Shown here: positions 5,878 to 39,266 of the stretch, piece after piece
Numbering within the stretch: position 1 is the stretch's first letter
Layout: every line of letters starts with the position of its first letter
Origin: Gordonia spumicola
Lineage (GTDB): Bacteria > Actinomycetota > Actinomycetes > Mycobacteriales > Mycobacteriaceae
Length of the DNA: 64,000 nt
Assembly (NCBI RefSeq): GCF_009932475.1
Contig: NZ_BJOV01000005.1
Coordinates: 1,054,001-1,118,000, forward strand
Direction of reading: 5' to 3'
Position numbers and translations under genes: made by a program
The notes under the pieces: model-generated
Databases searched by the model: none
What the model was told of the DNA's origin: nothing
What the model saw: the letters and a program-made list of their open reading frames with translations, nothing else

Positions 5878-7025
5878 GCGCTCTTGTCCGCGGGGACCAT
5901 GTGGACGTCGTGCGGTGCGACGTCCACGTACAGGCGATCGCCCGGAGCCGGCGCGTGCTCGAGGACGGGGACGTCGACGCCGAGTCGCTGGTCGGTCGCG
6001 ATGATCCTGACCCGGACGTGCCGGGTGGACCCGCGCCACTGGACGTCGTCGACCTCCACTTCGAAACCGTTGGACGGCGAGGTCCGAGTGAACCGCCACG
6101 CCCACGGGCGGATCGCCAGGGCCACGTGACGGTCGGCGGCGACACCGTCGACGCTGCGCGCCCGGACGGGGAGTCCACCGTGGTCCAGGACGCCGATCTC
6201 ACCCGCCGCGATGTCGGCGACGGCGCGGACCGGGAGGATGTCCGCCCCGCCGAGGAAGGTGGCCGCGAACTCGGTCGGCGGCGTGTGGAACAGTTTCTCG
6301 GACGTGTCGATCGACTCGAGGCGGGCGTTGCGCATGAGCGCGATCCGGTCGGCGAGCGCGAGCGCCTCGGCCTGGTCGTGTGTCACATGGACGATCGCGA
6401 CGTCGGGGAGGTCGCGCCGGAGCTGCTGCAGCTCGACGAGCATGTCTTGACGCAGCCGCGTGTCGAGCGCCGACAGCGGCTCGTCGAGCAGCAGGAGGTC
6501 GGGTCGACCCGCGAGTGCACGGGCGATCGCCACGCGCTGCTGCTGGCCGCCGGACAGTTCCCGCGGGAGACGGTCGGCGTAGGAGAACATGCCGACCATG
6601 CGGAGGACCTCGTCCACCCGCGGCTTGATCTCGGCGCGAGGAGTGCGCCGAGCCTGGAGACCGAACGCGACGTTCTTCCGGACCGTCATGTGCGGGAAGA
6701 GCGCGTACTGCTGGACCACGAAACCGACGCCGCGGGCCGACGGCGGCAGCGCAGTCACGTCCCGACCGTCGATCTCGACGCGGCCCGCGACGACGTTCTC
6801 GAAACCCGCGATGGCCTTGAGCGCCGTCGACTTGCCCGAGCCCGACGGGCCGAGCAGGGCGAGCGTCTCGCCGCGCGCCACCTCGAACGAGCAGTCCTGC
6901 AGTGCGACGGTTCCGCCGTAGGCCACCGACACCGAGCTCAGACGGACGGCGGGCACGGCTCCCGTCGACGTCGTGGCTCCGGTGACCTCGACGGTCCGGC
7001 GTGCGCGTCCGGTCTCCGTGCTCAC
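5874..7025 (-). CDS. ABC transporter ATP-binding protein (aminophosphonate-type)
   Basis: 383-residue ATPase of the PotA/FbpC-like subfamily. Walker A GPSGSGKST is near residues 55-65, the Q-loop segment is FVVQQYALFPHMTV, the signature is LSGGQQQR and Walker B is LLLLDEPLSALD, followed by the conserved H-loop histidine (VTHDQAEAL). A C-terminal TOBE-like regulatory domain follows residue 240. GTG start overlaps the stop of the binding-protein gene (GTGA). This is the energising subunit of the uptake system. Confidence 0.9.
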   Translation of the reverse strand: MSTETGRARRTVEVTGATTSTGAVPAVRLSSVSVAYGGTVALQDCSFEVARGETLALLGPSGSGKSTALKAIAGFENVVAGRVEIDGRDVTALPPSARGVGFVVQQYALFPHMTVRKNVAFGLQARRTPRAEIKPRVDEVLRMVGMFSYADRLPRELSGGQQQRVAIARALAGRPDLLLLDEPLSALDTRLRQDMLVELQQLRRDLPDVAIVHVTHDQAEALALADRIALMRNARLESIDTSEKLFHTPPTEFAATFLGGADILPVRAVADIAAGEIGVLDHGGLPVRARSVDGVAADRHVALAIRPWAWRFTRTSPSNGFEVEVDDVQWRGSTRHVRVRIIATDQRLGVDVPVLEHAPAPGDRLYVDVAPHDVHMVPADKSA

Positions 7026-21986: not shown

Positions 21987-22859
21987 TCAGTCGGAGTCCT
22001 CCGAGCGCCTGCGAAGGTACTTCTCGAACTCGGCGGCGAGTGCGTCCCCGTCCACTTCGACCATCTTGTCGCCGGTCGCGTCGTCCGAGTCCACGCGTTC
22101 CTCGAGGTCGCGAACGTACGCGGACATGTCGTCGTCGTCGGACATCATCTCGTCGACGTCCTCCTGCCAGTCGGCGGCCTGCTGCTCGAGCCTGCCGTAG
22201 TCGACCGGCAGCCCGACGATCGGTTCGAGTCGGCGCAGCAACGCCAGCGTCGCCTTGGGGTTCGGCGGGTGCGCGATGTAGTGCGGCACGGCGGCCCACA
22301 ACGAGATGGACGGCACGCCGTGGCGGACGAACGCGTCCTGCAAGACCCCGGTGATGCCCGTCGGCCCGTCGTACGTGCTCGGCGACAGCCCGAAACGCGC
22401 GGCGGCCTCGCTGGTCTCCGCCGACGCCGACACCGGGACCGGCCGGGTGTGGGGCGAGTCGTCGAGGAGCGCGCCGAGCGTCACGACCAACTCCACGCCG
22501 AGCGCGTCGGCGAGGTCGACGATCGTCGAACAGAACGTCCGCCACCGCAGATTCGGCTCGGGACCGAGGACGAACACCACGTCGCGGTCAGAATCGGACA
22601 GTTTTGCGTACGAGACAGATGTCACAGGCCACGATATGCGGCGCGTCACACCGGAGACGTGAGCGATCGTCGGACGGTTCGACTGGTAGTCGTAGAAGTC
22701 GTCGGCGTCGATCTCGCGCAGATCGGTCGCGTCCCAGGTCAAAGCGAGATGTTCGACGGCTGACGTGGCCGCGTCGCCCGCGTCGTTCCAGCCGCCGAAC
22801 GCGGCGATCAGGACGGGACGACGCAGCGCGGGCAGTCCGGACGGGCGTGGCGAGTTCAT
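21987..22859 (-). CDS. PAC2-family protein (Rv2125-like)
   Basis: 290-residue protein of the proteasome-assembly-chaperone-2-like fold (AFGGWNDAGDAATSAVEHL near residue 20, LGALLDDSPHTRP near 130). The C-terminal tail is strongly acidic. Homologue Rv2125 is likewise next to metH and in the wider proteasome neighbourhood; a link to proteasome biology is only suggestive. ATG 22859 chosen (MNSPRPSGLP); the longer frame would cross the divergent metH promoter. Confidence 0.88.
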   Translation of the reverse strand: MNSPRPSGLPALRRPVLIAAFGGWNDAGDAATSAVEHLALTWDATDLREIDADDFYDYQSNRPTIAHVSGVTRRISWPVTSVSYAKLSDSDRDVVFVLGPEPNLRWRTFCSTIVDLADALGVELVVTLGALLDDSPHTRPVPVSASAETSEAAARFGLSPSTYDGPTGITGVLQDAFVRHGVPSISLWAAVPHYIAHPPNPKATLALLRRLEPIVGLPVDYGRLEQQAADWQEDVDEMMSDDDDMSAYVRDLEERVDSDDATGDKMVEVDGDALAAEFEKYLRRRSEDSD

Positions 22860-22909: not shown

Positions 22910-26521
<3,612 letters not shown>

Positions 26522-26558
26522 CACTAAAAACGCTTTGACCTGCTGATATGTCCACGAA

Positions 26559-30728: not shown

Positions 30729-30760
30729 ATTGCATTAGGTGCGCAGCAACCTAATGCAAT
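30729..30760. other. candidate oriT inverted repeat
   Basis: Perfect 12-bp inverted repeat (ATTGCATTAGGT and ACCTAATGCAAT) with the 8-base loop GCGCAGCA, about 80 bases upstream of the relaxase start and followed by TGCGTGTGTTTATTT. MobF origins carry such a hairpin next to the nick site in front of the relaxase gene. The nick position is not determinable here. Confidence 0.6.
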
Positions 30761-30763
30761 TGC

Positions 30764-30922
30764 GTGTGTTTATTTATGTGAGTTGTTGAGGTGTGTTGTA
30801 GTGAGGTGATGTAGGTGAGGTAGGTAGAGGTAGATGGAGGTATGAAGAGGTAGGTAGAAGGAGTTGAGAGAGGTGATTGAGGTGATTGAGGTGAGGTATG
30901 AAGAGTAGGGGATAAGTAGTTA
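30764..30922 (+). repeat. 159-base C-free, G/A/T-only low-complexity tract
   Basis: Not one C occurs between 30764 and 30922 on the plus strand. The tract is built from loosely repeated GAGGT and AGGTAG words with many closely spaced GG pairs. It lies directly beside the candidate oriT hairpin. No convincing gene occupies it. With 30650-30728 and 30923-31066 it makes up the 417-base divergent control and transfer region. Confidence 0.9.
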
Positions 30923-30970: not shown

Positions 30971-31013
30971 CAACTCACACGCCATATATTTGGTTCGCCA
31001 TATATGGCGCCGA
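30971..31013 (+). promoter_or_regulatory. element promoter motif copy A with 14-bp palindrome
   Basis: GTGAG GCAA CTCAC (30965-30978) is followed by GCCATATAT (30981-30989) and the perfect palindrome CGCCATATATGGCG (30996-31009). AACTCACA to CATATA has a 19-base spacing, identical to copy D at 34850-34880. It lies about 60 bases before the ribbon-helix-helix gene and may be that protein's own operator. Confidence 0.6.
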
Positions 31014-31066: not shown

Positions 31067-31396
31067 ATGGCTTACGAAACAACCATCAGCCTGCGTCTAA
31101 CCCCGGCGCTAGCCGATGAGGTACGACGCATTGCGAAACGACGCAACGAATCCGCCGCGTCCGTCTATCGCACAGTGATCGACCGGCTGCCGCTGGGGGG
31201 CCTATGTGAAGACGGAGAGCCACTGAGCACGTCGGCCAATCCAGGCCGAGTGGTCGTGCCGATCTTCGCGACACAGGAACAGTACCGCCGTCTGCGCGTA
31301 GCCAAGGCAATGTCGATGGCAACGACGCTACAACTGTTTGAGTCGATCGACATTGAGAGTCTGCTAAACGACGGAGGAGGTGAGTTCAATGACTGA
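31067..31396 (+). CDS. ribbon-helix-helix (CopG/Arc-like) protein, probable relaxosome or operator-binding protein
   Basis: 109-residue protein. The N-terminal beta-strand plus two helices (TTISLRLTPALADEVRRIAKRRNESAASVYRTVI) form a ribbon-helix-helix DNA-binding domain. ATG at 31067 follows TCGGGAGGTATA. Its position next to the oriT region and opposite the relaxase fits an auxiliary nicking or oriT-binding protein, an autorepressor, or both. Its stop overlaps the next start. Confidence 0.8.
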   Translation: MAYETTISLRLTPALADEVRRIAKRRNESAASVYRTVIDRLPLGGLCEDGEPLSTSANPGRVVVPIFATQEQYRRLRVAKAMSMATTLQLFESIDIESLLNDGGGEFND

Positions 31397-31767: not shown

Positions 31768-33513
31768 ATGAAAACAATCATCATCCTGCTAATCGTGCTG
31801 GCGGTCATCGCCGTAGCAGCGTGGAAACTGTGGAAGTCGATCCATCGCCGACCGTCCACCGTATCGGCCACCACGTCAATGGCGGGCAAGAAGGACTTGG
31901 CGACTGTCAAGAGGGGCGACCGGCACACCGCCGAAGCAGACTTCGTGCTAGGTCGTCTCGTGGACGATGGGAAAGTCACCCGTGACTTCGTGACGGCGGA
32001 CGGTACCGGCGGCATCGTCGTCGGACCCACCGGCTCGGGAAAGACTCAGGGGATTGTCATCCCGACGATCGTGCGGCACAAGGGGCCGTTGCTCGCCACG
32101 TCAACCAAGTCGGAATTGGCCGACCTCACTATGTCGGCCCGCAGTCGGATCGGCTCGGTGGCTGTGATCGACCCGGCAGGCGTTGTAGATGGTCCTGCGG
32201 CGGCCTACGTGCGCCTGTGGACCCCTCTGCAAGCATGCAAGACGTTTAACGAGGCTGCCTTGACCACAGCCCTGCTAGTCGAGGCAGGCGGTAGTGACAG
32301 CGGCAGGACTGGCTCGTCGGTCTGGACCACCGCAGCAAAATCGCTTCTGACAACAGTTCTTTGGATGATGCGGCAGTACGACGGAACGGCCCTGTCGGAT
32401 GTGCAGGTGATGCTGACGGCGCTCATGTCAGAGGGAAGCGAAGAACTCGATGCTGAGGTACCGCCTGTGCCTACCGATTTCGGCCACCTGGTCACCTGGA
32501 TTGCCACTCATCCGCTAGGCGGCTGGGATGCTGGCATCGCCGTATGCGAGGCGCTGGCTGAGAACGGCAAGGCGGCGATCCTCGACGCGCAGCGAGCGGC
32601 TGGCGGCCTGCGGGCAGTGCAGCAGATCAGTGGGGCATCCGAGACGGTTGCGGGTGTGGTTTTCGGTGTCCAGGGGGCGCTGCTCTCTCTGGTCGGCTCT
32701 GAAATCGTGTGGTACGCCCGATGGGACGATCCGGGGTTGATCGATCTAGCGGCGTGGGCGTCCGAACCTGCGGGCACAATCTACGTTGTCGCGCCCGACC
32801 AAAGCGATCCGTTCCGTGGACTCTTCTGTGCATTCGTGACTGCGGCGATGAGTGCGCTCGACCAGGAGGCATGGAGCCATCAGGACAAGCGTCTGCCGAA
32901 TCCTGCACTGTTCATGCTCGACGAACTGGCGAACGTCTGCCCGCTGCCACAACTTCCGCGCTGGCTTGCCACCAAGCGCTCGCAAGGCGTGAAGTTTGTG
33001 TTGGGCCTTCAAGGCCTCGGGCAACTTTGGGGACTCTGGTCGGACTCCGATGCGGAGGCCATCATCAACAACGCGGATGCTTTTATCGTCGTACTATCTG
33101 GTACGCAGGACGATAAGACAACTGACCGCGTAGAGAAGTATTCCGGGGAGTACTTGGATCGCATTGAAACCGTCTCTCGGTCGAAGTCCAGGGGGACCTC
33201 GCGGTCAATGGGCATGAGCAAGGGCGACTCCCGGAGCGAGACCGATAGCACGAACTGGAACACAAGCGCTTCGTACCGGTCCTTGGTCAAACCGGCTGGG
33301 CTCTTCCAGATGGCCTACGGTCGCGCAGCGGTGCTAATGCCACGCAAGAAGTTTGCCCTCGTGGAGATGGTCCCTGCACATGCAGACAAGGAGTTGCAAG
33401 TGCTGATGCTCCCGGCTCCGCCGCCGCCTGCACCGCCGGTCTATCGGCCAACTGCACCACGGTCACGCAAACTCGGAGAGGACGCGACGGCTGATTTCTT
33501 TACCGCCTCCTAG
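31768..33513 (+). CDS. type IV coupling protein (TraG/TraD/VirD4-like ATPase)
   Basis: 581-residue hexameric DNA-pump family ATPase that would deliver the relaxase-DNA complex to a secretion channel. One N-terminal transmembrane helix (residues 3-20) is followed by Walker A GPTGSGKT near residue 86, TKSELADLT, Walker B ALFMLDELANVCPLPQLP near residue 380 and a QGLGQLWGLW motif. The C-terminus is proline-rich. Start has AACGGAGGAG upstream. Pairing with a MobF relaxase without VirB4 suggests reliance on a resident conjugation channel. Confidence 0.9.
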   Translation: MKTIIILLIVLAVIAVAAWKLWKSIHRRPSTVSATTSMAGKKDLATVKRGDRHTAEADFVLGRLVDDGKVTRDFVTADGTGGIVVGPTGSGKTQGIVIPTIVRHKGPLLATSTKSELADLTMSARSRIGSVAVIDPAGVVDGPAAAYVRLWTPLQACKTFNEAALTTALLVEAGGSDSGRTGSSVWTTAAKSLLTTVLWMMRQYDGTALSDVQVMLTALMSEGSEELDAEVPPVPTDFGHLVTWIATHPLGGWDAGIAVCEALAENGKAAILDAQRAAGGLRAVQQISGASETVAGVVFGVQGALLSLVGSEIVWYARWDDPGLIDLAAWASEPAGTIYVVAPDQSDPFRGLFCAFVTAAMSALDQEAWSHQDKRLPNPALFMLDELANVCPLPQLPRWLATKRSQGVKFVLGLQGLGQLWGLWSDSDAEAIINNADAFIVVLSGTQDDKTTDRVEKYSGEYLDRIETVSRSKSRGTSRSMGMSKGDSRSETDSTNWNTSASYRSLVKPAGLFQMAYGRAAVLMPRKKFALVEMVPAHADKELQVLMLPAPPPPAPPVYRPTAPRSRKLGEDATADFFTAS

Positions 33514-37354: not shown

Positions 37355-39151
37355 TCAGAGCATGATCGGCGTTGCAGAGCCTGGTCGCATAACCTTCGTG
37401 TAGCGCTGCAATGTCGTTGCGGAGTTGGAGTGCCCCAACTGTGCGCTGATGATGCTGACCGGTGTACCGGTGCGGAGAGCCTGCGTTGCGAACGTATGGC
37501 GGAGGTTCCGCATGGTTCGCGCTTGTCCGTTGAGACCCTTCGGGTTTGAGATACCGCTTTGGTCAACAATCTGCTGCCAGAGGCTCCGGCTGGCGGAGTA
37601 GGCGATGTGGCATCCGTTTGGGTTGAGGTACGGCAGGCTGATCGGTAGTCGTGTGTTCGAGCGAGGAGGCCGTACAGATGCCCACATGAGGGCTGTCTCT
37701 GCTGGGCCCACTTGGTGGTTGTCGGTGTGCGGGGGCTTCCAGAACTCGGGTGTGGAGGCTAGCAGCGCCTTGATGTGAGTGTCGATCATCTCTCTCACTG
37801 GTTGAATCGCGCCGTCGTCCCACAGGTCGATGAACTCCTTGGTGTGGAGGCGACGCGGCAAAGTGCGGACCCGTTGTAGAGGCTCGCCGCCAATCACTGC
37901 GAGATTGCCATCATCATCGACTCGCATGAGACGCCTGCTGACGTCCCGTAGCGCCTCGTATGGGTCGCTCATGTCGGCTGGTAGGAGATTGTCAGGCACC
38001 TTCCAGAAGTAGGTCGAGGGGCCGGGTGTTCGGTGCCTGATCGTTCTGAGGTCGGCCAGGAAGCCGCGCCGTATCGCGAGCAGATTGACGGCACGGGCCT
38101 TCGCGTGCCGTAGACCGTCCTCGGTCGCCAAATCGCTTGGTGCGCCATACTTTTCGAGGATGTCCCGTGAACTGCGTGGCCTGTGATCGGGGCCGTCGAT
38201 TGGGGCTGTCCACGTCGGGACATAGATTGTTCGGGACTTCCCACCTTTCGGACGGCGAATCTCTTTGAAGCCACCGGCGTGCTCCCTGTAGGAGCGCGAT
38301 ATGTGTGCGTTGGCGAGTTCGCGGTATGGCTCTCCGTGGCCCGTCGTTGAGGTGTTATCCGCTCGGAAGTCGCCTACCTCTAGCGCCCGCATCTCTCCCT
38401 GTCGCAGGCCAGTGGAGGCGGTGAGGAGGATGGCTAGATGGGTGGAGCGGCCAAACGTCGCGTAGTCCCAGTTCCTGGCGTTGCCGCCCTCTCGCCGTCG
38501 CCGCTCGCATACCGTGAGGGCAGCCTCAGAGATTCTGTAAACCTCTTCCATCGTGAACACATGGTCGGGCTGAACGGTGCTCCCGCGTGTGTCGTCCTGC
38601 CGCGCATACTGTTGTGTGACAGAGAACGTCAGTCGCTCCGTGTACTCGATGGGCGCGCGTGGCAGAAGTTTCTCCACATAAGACCATTTCAGGAACGGAT
38701 TCAGTTGGGAGACAACGCGTTTCTGTGTCTTCGCGGTCCCACCGGCAGCGGTTATATCGTCCAAGACTCTCTGGATGTGCTGGTACCGAAGTTCTCTGAG
38801 TTGTGTGGAGCGCAGAGGAGCGAGTTTGGTCTTCATTGCCCGCTCCAACTGGGCTGTGTACTCCAAGGAGATGTTGGGGGCCTTGGCCTGCACATACTGC
38901 GCCCAAGCGGTGCCGAAGGTGACGGTCGAGGAGCGCACGGCTGTTCCTGCCGTGAGCGCTGCATCGATGGCATGAGCCCTATCGAGCGCCTTCCCGTAGT
39001 CCTTGGTGGCGCTACTGCGCTTCACGGCTCCGTACTCGTCGGTGTAGGTGATCCGGTAGTACAGGTAGTTCTCGGTGGGTGCCGTGAGCCACACCTGGCC
39101 GATCTGCCTGCCCTCGCCGGGGGCCATTTGGGACACTCGTTTCGCTGCCAT
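37355..39151 (-). CDS. int: tyrosine recombinase / integrase of the element
   Basis: 598-residue phage-type integrase. The N-terminal arm-binding and core-binding regions (to about residue 190) precede the catalytic domain. Catalytic residues seen are Arg in TGLRQGEMRAL (near residue 249), His and Arg in RNLRHTFATQAL (near 549), His in QLGHSNSATTLQ (near 571) and the nucleophile Tyr in LQRYTKV (near 582). The region between the first Arg and the HxxR box is unusually long (about 300 residues), as in several actinobacterial element integrases. Its start is about 95 bases from attR. No excisionase gene is recognisable. Confidence 0.93.
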   Translation of the reverse strand: MAAKRVSQMAPGEGRQIGQVWLTAPTENYLYYRITYTDEYGAVKRSSATKDYGKALDRAHAIDAALTAGTAVRSSTVTFGTAWAQYVQAKAPNISLEYTAQLERAMKTKLAPLRSTQLRELRYQHIQRVLDDITAAGGTAKTQKRVVSQLNPFLKWSYVEKLLPRAPIEYTERLTFSVTQQYARQDDTRGSTVQPDHVFTMEEVYRISEAALTVCERRRREGGNARNWDYATFGRSTHLAILLTASTGLRQGEMRALEVGDFRADNTSTTGHGEPYRELANAHISRSYREHAGGFKEIRRPKGGKSRTIYVPTWTAPIDGPDHRPRSSRDILEKYGAPSDLATEDGLRHAKARAVNLLAIRRGFLADLRTIRHRTPGPSTYFWKVPDNLLPADMSDPYEALRDVSRRLMRVDDDGNLAVIGGEPLQRVRTLPRRLHTKEFIDLWDDGAIQPVREMIDTHIKALLASTPEFWKPPHTDNHQVGPAETALMWASVRPPRSNTRLPISLPYLNPNGCHIAYSASRSLWQQIVDQSGISNPKGLNGQARTMRNLRHTFATQALRTGTPVSIISAQLGHSNSATTLQRYTKVMRPGSATPIML

Positions 39152-39241: not shown

Positions 39242-39266
39242 GAGGCGAAGTACTTCAACACGTAGC
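39242..39266 (+). repeat. attR: right attachment-site repeat
   Basis: Direct repeat of 26498-26522 with one mismatch. The sequence to its right resumes the chromosome. The terminal TAGC also forms part of the TAGCCT element in front of the HAD gene. Confidence 0.93.

Follow-up and report, generated by a model that had tools for sequence, protein, structure and literature searches.

The 64,000-nucleotide (nt) stretch of Gordonia spumicola DNA analyzed here, referred to as the window, harbors an element in which an integrase, a relaxase, a coupling protein, and two copies of a 19-bp direct repeat are all present (Table 1). The repeats likely represent the ends of the element, which would then be approximately 12.7 kb long and appears to be integrated in metH. 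Judged from its sequence, the element is probably integrative and mobilizable; no mating-pore families were recognized among the nine proteins scanned. No tRNA was found within positions 22000 to 44000, and a simple scan of the window for sigma-70-type promoters returned none. The relaxase gene starts 115 nt from a tract that lacks cytosine on the plus strand, and on the other side of this tract lies a gene for a 109-aa protein, which had no Pfam match and no match among plasmids and whose structural model (pLDDT 55) shows the order strand-helix-helix twice. A further inverted repeat separates the tract from this gene. Inverted matches of 9 to 10 nt were also observed between positions 30759-30785 and 30971-30985, at about chance level by a rough count.

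Table 1. Features of the element, in order along the window
Feature	Position	Strand	Basis or remark
19-bp direct repeat AAGTACTTCAACACGTAGC, candidate att, 3′ end of metH	26504..26522		repeat
MobF (TrwC-type) relaxase-helicase, 1160 aa	27167..30649	-	TrwC PF08751 (E value 1.1e-46), AAA_30 (9.5e-28), AAA_19 (3.6e-13)
Perfect 12-bp inverted repeat, candidate relaxase-binding hairpin	arms 30729-30740 / 30749-30760, 8-nt spacer	+	repeat search, fold
Candidate nic motif TGCGTGTG	30761..30768	+	likeness to R388 TGCGTATTG/T and F TGCGTGGGGTGT/G
C-free tract	30764..30922	+	putative 5′ leading end of the transferred strand, reaching 154 nt past the presumed cut
Inverted repeat CGCCATATAT / ATATATGGCG, possible operator of the 109-aa gene	30980..31009		repeat search; role suggested by position
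109-aa protein, possibly a ribbon-helix-helix accessory protein	31067..31396	+	low-confidence model
Type IV coupling protein	31768..33513	+	T4SS-DNA_transf PF02534 (E value 1.2e-27), TraG-D_C, TrwB_AAD_bind
Tyrosine integrase	37355..39151	-	Phage_integrase PF00589 (E value 3.6e-12)
19-bp direct repeat AAGTACTTCAACACGTAGC, second copy, candidate att, beyond the integrase	39248..39266		repeat

The tract begins inside the octamer TGCGTGTG, just 3′ of the hairpin, and is bounded by C residues at positions 30763 and 30923; a base count of the 159 nt in between yielded 69 G, 48 T, 42 A, and 0 C. After it, the longest stretches without C anywhere in the window measure 31, 27, and 21 nt, and the longest run in sequences simulated with Markov models of order 1, 2, and 3 (100 each, trained on the element minus the tract) did not exceed 37 nt. 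The absence of C over 159 bases, which an earlier sequence-only reading of this DNA had pointed out, is real and lies far beyond chance expectation. That reading had also described a perfect 12-bp hairpin directly before the tract and a repetition of the word GAGGT within it. Both descriptions held, as the hairpin arms form a perfect inverted repeat in a region with a predicted fold energy of −15.1 kcal/mol (z of −5.0 against dinucleotide shuffles) and GAGGT occurs 10 times within the tract, with some copies 9 to 10 nt apart. The closely spaced GG pairs of the same description proved to be the reverse of what was claimed, since GG pairs are depleted in the tract (18 versus 29.4 in shuffles, z of −3.8), as are GGG triplets (2 versus 12.4, z of −3.2). 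The predicted fold energy of the tract itself is 0, its complement is G-free and C-rich, and the tract is present as a single copy in its own genome.

Two of the features expected of a MobF-type oriT, namely, an adjacent gene for a MobF relaxase and an inverted repeat just 5′ of a nic-like motif, are found in the window. In the R388 and F motifs to which the octamer was compared, a slash (Table 1) marks the cut position. From this likeness, the cut on the plus strand was placed between positions 30768 and 30769, and 154 nt of the plus strand downstream of this presumed cut are without C. If the plus strand is cut, the transferred strand would have the tract at its 5′ end; the coupling protein gene and the gene starting at 31067 would enter early and the relaxase gene last.

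The relaxase of the window had no close relatives in a search of 301 genomes of the family, in which the matches in 44 genomes (own genome included) covered parts that were 25 to 37% identical. In a search of 296 genomes of the class, the identity of the matched part was at most 38%, the genome contig database yielded 0 matches, and phages yielded only 2 weak ones. In 29 distantly related loci (L003-L031), approximately 1.5 kb upstream of the relaxase (3 kb for L030) was scanned for stretches without C on the strand that, relative to the relaxase, corresponds to that of the window tract. Runs of 134 nt (L011) and 97 nt (L021) were found, two other loci contained runs of 41 and 35 nt, and the runs in the remaining 25 did not exceed 22 nt. 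An alignment of five of these relaxases then led to the best 80 of 529 loci, most of them from Nocardia, a genus of the same family as the host. Sixty-four of the 80 were aligned on the motif ATGCAAGAGGTSTGC and its variants, and 59 were retained after removal of near-duplicates. Five loci were left out for too little upstream DNA (L054, L063, L064, L078, and L083) and four for a displaced motif (L040, L053, L090, and L094), and in seven the motif was not matched by the patterns used (L050, L056, L069, L097, L102, L109, and L111).

In the 59 non-redundant loci, C directly 3′ of the motif amounted to only 4 to 12% over approximately 120 nt, with a mean of 4% at +20 and of at most 12% up to +139; it reached 25 to 34% from +160, and on the 5′ side of the motif it stood at 18 to 30%. 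The depletion thus has a limited length and lies on the motif strand, beside the nic-like motif. Among all 64 aligned loci, the 120 nt after the motif contained at most 3 C in 13 loci, at most 6 in 26, and at most 12 in 43 (median, 8.5), and the 100 nt beyond contained 19 to 41 C. No C at all was found across the 120 nt in 7 of the 64, and since the longest run among these was 150 nt, the 159 nt of the window is the longest that we have seen. In 55 of the 59 loci the C content of the tract was lower than the C or G content of any other 120-nt window of the locus, and in 58 of the 59 it fell below the 1% point. Two loci, L081 and L082, count against the tract rule, with 25 and 24 C of 120, and the first motif match in them may be the wrong place. 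Looked at from the other direction, the 695 kb of the 80 loci contained 25 runs of at least 45 nt lacking C or lacking G on the motif strand. Twenty-three of them lay at most 130 nt from the motif, all C-free on the motif strand, and the other two were one L040 tract split by a single C, located 3.3 kb from the relaxase and right after a perfect motif. The recurrence of the pattern in many other genomes speaks against an assembly artifact as the source of the C-free tract.

In Nocardia, 38 of the 118 genomes contained an exact form of the motif, at 41 places in total, compared with 3 for the reversed control, and 30 of the 41 places were read. The 20 that adjoined a relaxase gene had 2 to 15 C of 120, and one with the relaxase 1,364 nt off had 6. 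Nine places had no relaxase within 1.5 kb; five of these, with 42 to 47 C, look like chance matches, and the other four had 5, 7, 16, and 22 C. One of the four (L152/L182) has its relaxase at a distance of 4.1 kb; the longer stretches around the other three yielded no relaxase. The tract could also be followed where motif and gene are separated. The distance from the motif to the relaxase start is 1,364 nt in L053, 2,570 nt in L094, 3,249 nt in L090, 3,284 nt in L040, and 4,126 nt in L182, and the 120 nt after these displaced motifs contain 6, 6, 12, 1, and 5 C, respectively. Different genes intervene: in L040 and L090 an integrase gene, an HTH gene, and a third gene, in L182 an integrase gene plus one other, and in L094 genes for a phosphatase, a formyltransferase, and an acetyltransferase. 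The sequence-only reading had considered a G-free leader of the relaxase mRNA. As the tract stays with the motif although the intervening DNA differs, this role is disfavored, and the tract is linked to the motif, not to the relaxase gene. In L040 (772-3829) and L090 (1011-3831), the genes between the oriT motif and the relaxase gene form a trio of integrase, HTH_26, and large protein, the last of which has a weak integrase match in L040.

C depletion was observed in more than one MobF clade. A motif from another relaxase branch, TTGTGCAAATGTGCC, was matched 52 times in 37 of the 198 genomes from genus g29, which belongs to the same family as the host and which we take to be Mycobacterium; the reversed control gave 0. 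Thirty of the 52 places were read, and the 27 that were non-redundant showed a C fraction of 0.47 to 0.49 just 5′ of the motif, of 0.10 to 0.15 at +20 to +159, and of more than 0.30 from +180, which corresponds to a low-C zone approximately 140 nt long. Single loci had 5 to 31 C of 120, and the two exceptions among the 30, L193 and L212 with 30 and 31 C, count against the tract rule. A hairpin 5′ of TTGTGCAAATGTGCC was indicated (z below −1) in 24 of the 30 loci; for the Nocardia type no such hairpin signal was obtained (4 of 59 loci). L148, a locus of a third type with the motif ATGCACATGTCTGC, is likewise C-poor (7% in 100 nt).

Loci without such a tract were found as well. In 24 of 28 loci from across the class (a sample that leaves out L125), no 100-nt window with less than 12% C was present in approximately 1.5 kb upstream, in a scan that was not anchored to a located oriT. 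MobF loci of Rhodococcus, on plasmids and chromosomes, carry the Nocardia-type motif ATGCAAGAGGTSTG upstream of the relaxase gene, but the four genome loci have 17 to 20 C of 120, nearer to ordinary composition. No long C-free run was present in six named plasmids of Corynebacterium, Rhodococcus, Dietzia, and Tomitella, in which the runs near the relaxase were at most 25 nt. One Rhodococcus plasmid, pRZP4 (L115), has a long tandem array of GGCACGAAGCAGAGCGAA upstream of mobF, beside the relaxase start.

What appears to be kept is a rule that bars C from the motif strand along a stretch of limited length, and not a sequence. The tracts of close relatives differ by many insertions and deletions and by replacement of A, G, and T with one another. 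For five pairs of loci with strict tracts, only 3 of 43 substitutions in the tract involved C, compared with 221 of 420 for the relaxase gene (Fisher p of 2e-9), and a conservative test of C-T against A-G exchanges in the same pairs still gave a p of 0.013. Over all 12 pairs, the figures were 35 of 174 in the tract and 723 of 1,318 in the relaxase gene; these pairs were picked by eye, L062 and L043 were used twice, L081/L085 consists mostly of gaps, and repetitive tracts are difficult to align with certainty. A tandem repeat in L036 is absent from relatives with approximately 90% relaxase identity, yet the L036 tract extends over 150 nt without C. The comparison proposed along with the sequence-only reading, which was whether related elements conserve the absence of C rather than the sequence, therefore came out positive, both in the profile of the 59 loci and in the substitutions of the strict pairs.

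The predicted fold of the tracts is weak (−4.8 kcal/mol per 120 nt, versus −27.5 for the flank, in the 59 loci). The residual C residues of the relatives show no placement that would avoid pairing (mean z of −0.28), so that folding itself may not be the target; the quantity kept seems to be the C count more than the fold. Runs of G were compared with shuffles in 25 tracts, namely, that of the window and those of 24 relatives having no more than 6 C in 120 nt, and yielded a mean z of −2.1 for GG, −1.4 for GGG, and −0.1 for the G-quadruplex motif. With GG and GGG depleted and quadruplex motifs not enriched, the two-tier G-quadruplex that had been suggested for the tract is disfavored.

The window shows the extreme case of a recurrent feature beside the nic-like motifs of actinobacterial MobF elements, and the tract is very probably a constrained part of the oriT. 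Among the roles named in the sequence-only reading, a region kept single-stranded and free of structure during transfer fits best, as the tract starts at the candidate nic, lies on the expected strand, has a predicted fold energy of 0, and recurs in relatives. Our main reading, to which we assign a probability of roughly one-half, is that the tract constitutes the first approximately 150 nt of the transferred strand within oriT and is held single-stranded for the entry of the relaxase-helicase. The relaxase would nick the plus strand at 30768/30769, so that the tract would become the 5′ leading end; a second MobF molecule would enter in helicase mode on this non-folding segment, and unwinding and export would start there. 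In a GC-rich genome, a segment without C can form no G-C pairs and would therefore stay single-stranded after nicking. In the F system, one TraI binds 5′ of nic, and a second loads 3′ of nic, the same side as the tract, in helicase mode once this DNA is single-stranded (PMC5422253).

On balance, we favor a wider version of this proposal, in which many actinobacterial MobF oriTs carry a C-excluding zone of approximately 120 to 155 nt 3′ of nic, across clades whose relaxases are approximately 25 to 38% identical, and in which this zone helps strand opening, export, or single-strandedness in the recipient. The known systems agree with the window in part. The R388 oriT has a hairpin followed by a TGCGT.. 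nic motif, the leading end 3′ of nic, and in TrwC a MobF relaxase with a helicase; F shares the TGCGTGGGGTGT motif and the MobF relaxase (TraI). Unlike in the window, C makes up 26% of the first 120 nt past nic in R388 and 15% in F, and the longest C-free runs within 200 nt are 13 and 31 nt, respectively. The inability to form G-C pairs would be expected to have more effect in GC-rich DNA than in either of these two plasmids. Nevertheless, the main reading has against it that R388, F, the Rhodococcus loci, the six plasmids, and most class-wide loci are without such a tract, that the Nocardia-type motifs lack a hairpin signal, and that the residual C is not positioned to avoid pairing.

Other explanations remain, in falling order of probability insulation by Rho, exclusion of priming, an R-loop, biased mutation, and protein binding. 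RNA that is G-free and C-rich is the kind of region that Rho binds, and a leftward transcript of the tract would have just this composition, as in a rut region; it could act as a Rho-type site, an insulator or attenuator that stops transcription into the nic and relaxase region. In many Nocardia loci, the open reading frames to the right of the tract appear, by crude calls, to read leftward toward it. We nonetheless regard this role as unlikely, since the tract, unlike a rut region, abuts the nic-like motif, stays there when genes separate the motif from the relaxase, and has a limited length. In the window it is divergent from the next gene, the rightward gene at 31067, and a leftward transcript would need a promoter of its own, none of the sigma-70 type having been found in the simple scan. 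Somewhat less probable is that the lack of C concerns priming: a primase that needs C in its template site would find no start on the transferred strand, and in the recipient the 5′ end would stay single-stranded until its ends are rejoined by the relaxase. Position and strand fit this proposal, as does the apparent retention of the C count rather than of folding.

We see little likelihood that a rightward G-rich RNA pairs with the C-rich strand and, as an R-loop, leaves the transferred strand open at nic. The strand that would be displaced is rich in G (47 to 57%, with C below 13%, on the motif strand in the 59 loci), but clusters of GG and GGG, which help R-loops start, are fewer than in shuffles, and the simple scan revealed no promoter to the left of nic in the window. 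Slightly more doubtful still is a mutational by-product, arising either by deamination of C on a strand exposed near nic or by expansion of C-free repeats. The many insertions, deletions, and repeats in the tracts are in line with such an origin; however, T shows no proportionate increase and G exceeds its level in both flanks, so that a change of C to T by deamination alone fails as an explanation, and the unrelated repeats of L036 are likewise C-free. The least probable of these explanations, and a very improbable one, is that an accessory protein, for example, the product of the gene at 31067, binds the tract at an array of sites. The ten copies of GAGGT within 159 nt, several of them spaced by 9 to 10 nt, would suit an array, but the words differ among relatives and the GG autocorrelation showed no clear phase, which weakens a fixed protein-binding array.

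A composition rule of this kind would provide a sequence-independent signature for transfer origins where such origins are hard to find; in a Mycolicibacterium survey (PMC8190616), for example, the predicted plasmids had no match to the known oriT sequences of oriTDB. Among the titles and abstract openings listed in searches of open-licence PMC papers, none describes such a rule. The rule makes it testable what the first approximately 150 nt of the transferred strand need for a MobF relaxase-helicase to start, and also whether composition by itself can conserve a cis element. A separate observation concerns L185 (G586:C5), in which a long hairpin, CCTCTTGCACT / AGTGCAAGAGG, has the motif at oriented position 5979 as its 3′ arm and lies near a gene with a relaxase domain of the MobA/VirD2 type, not MobF.
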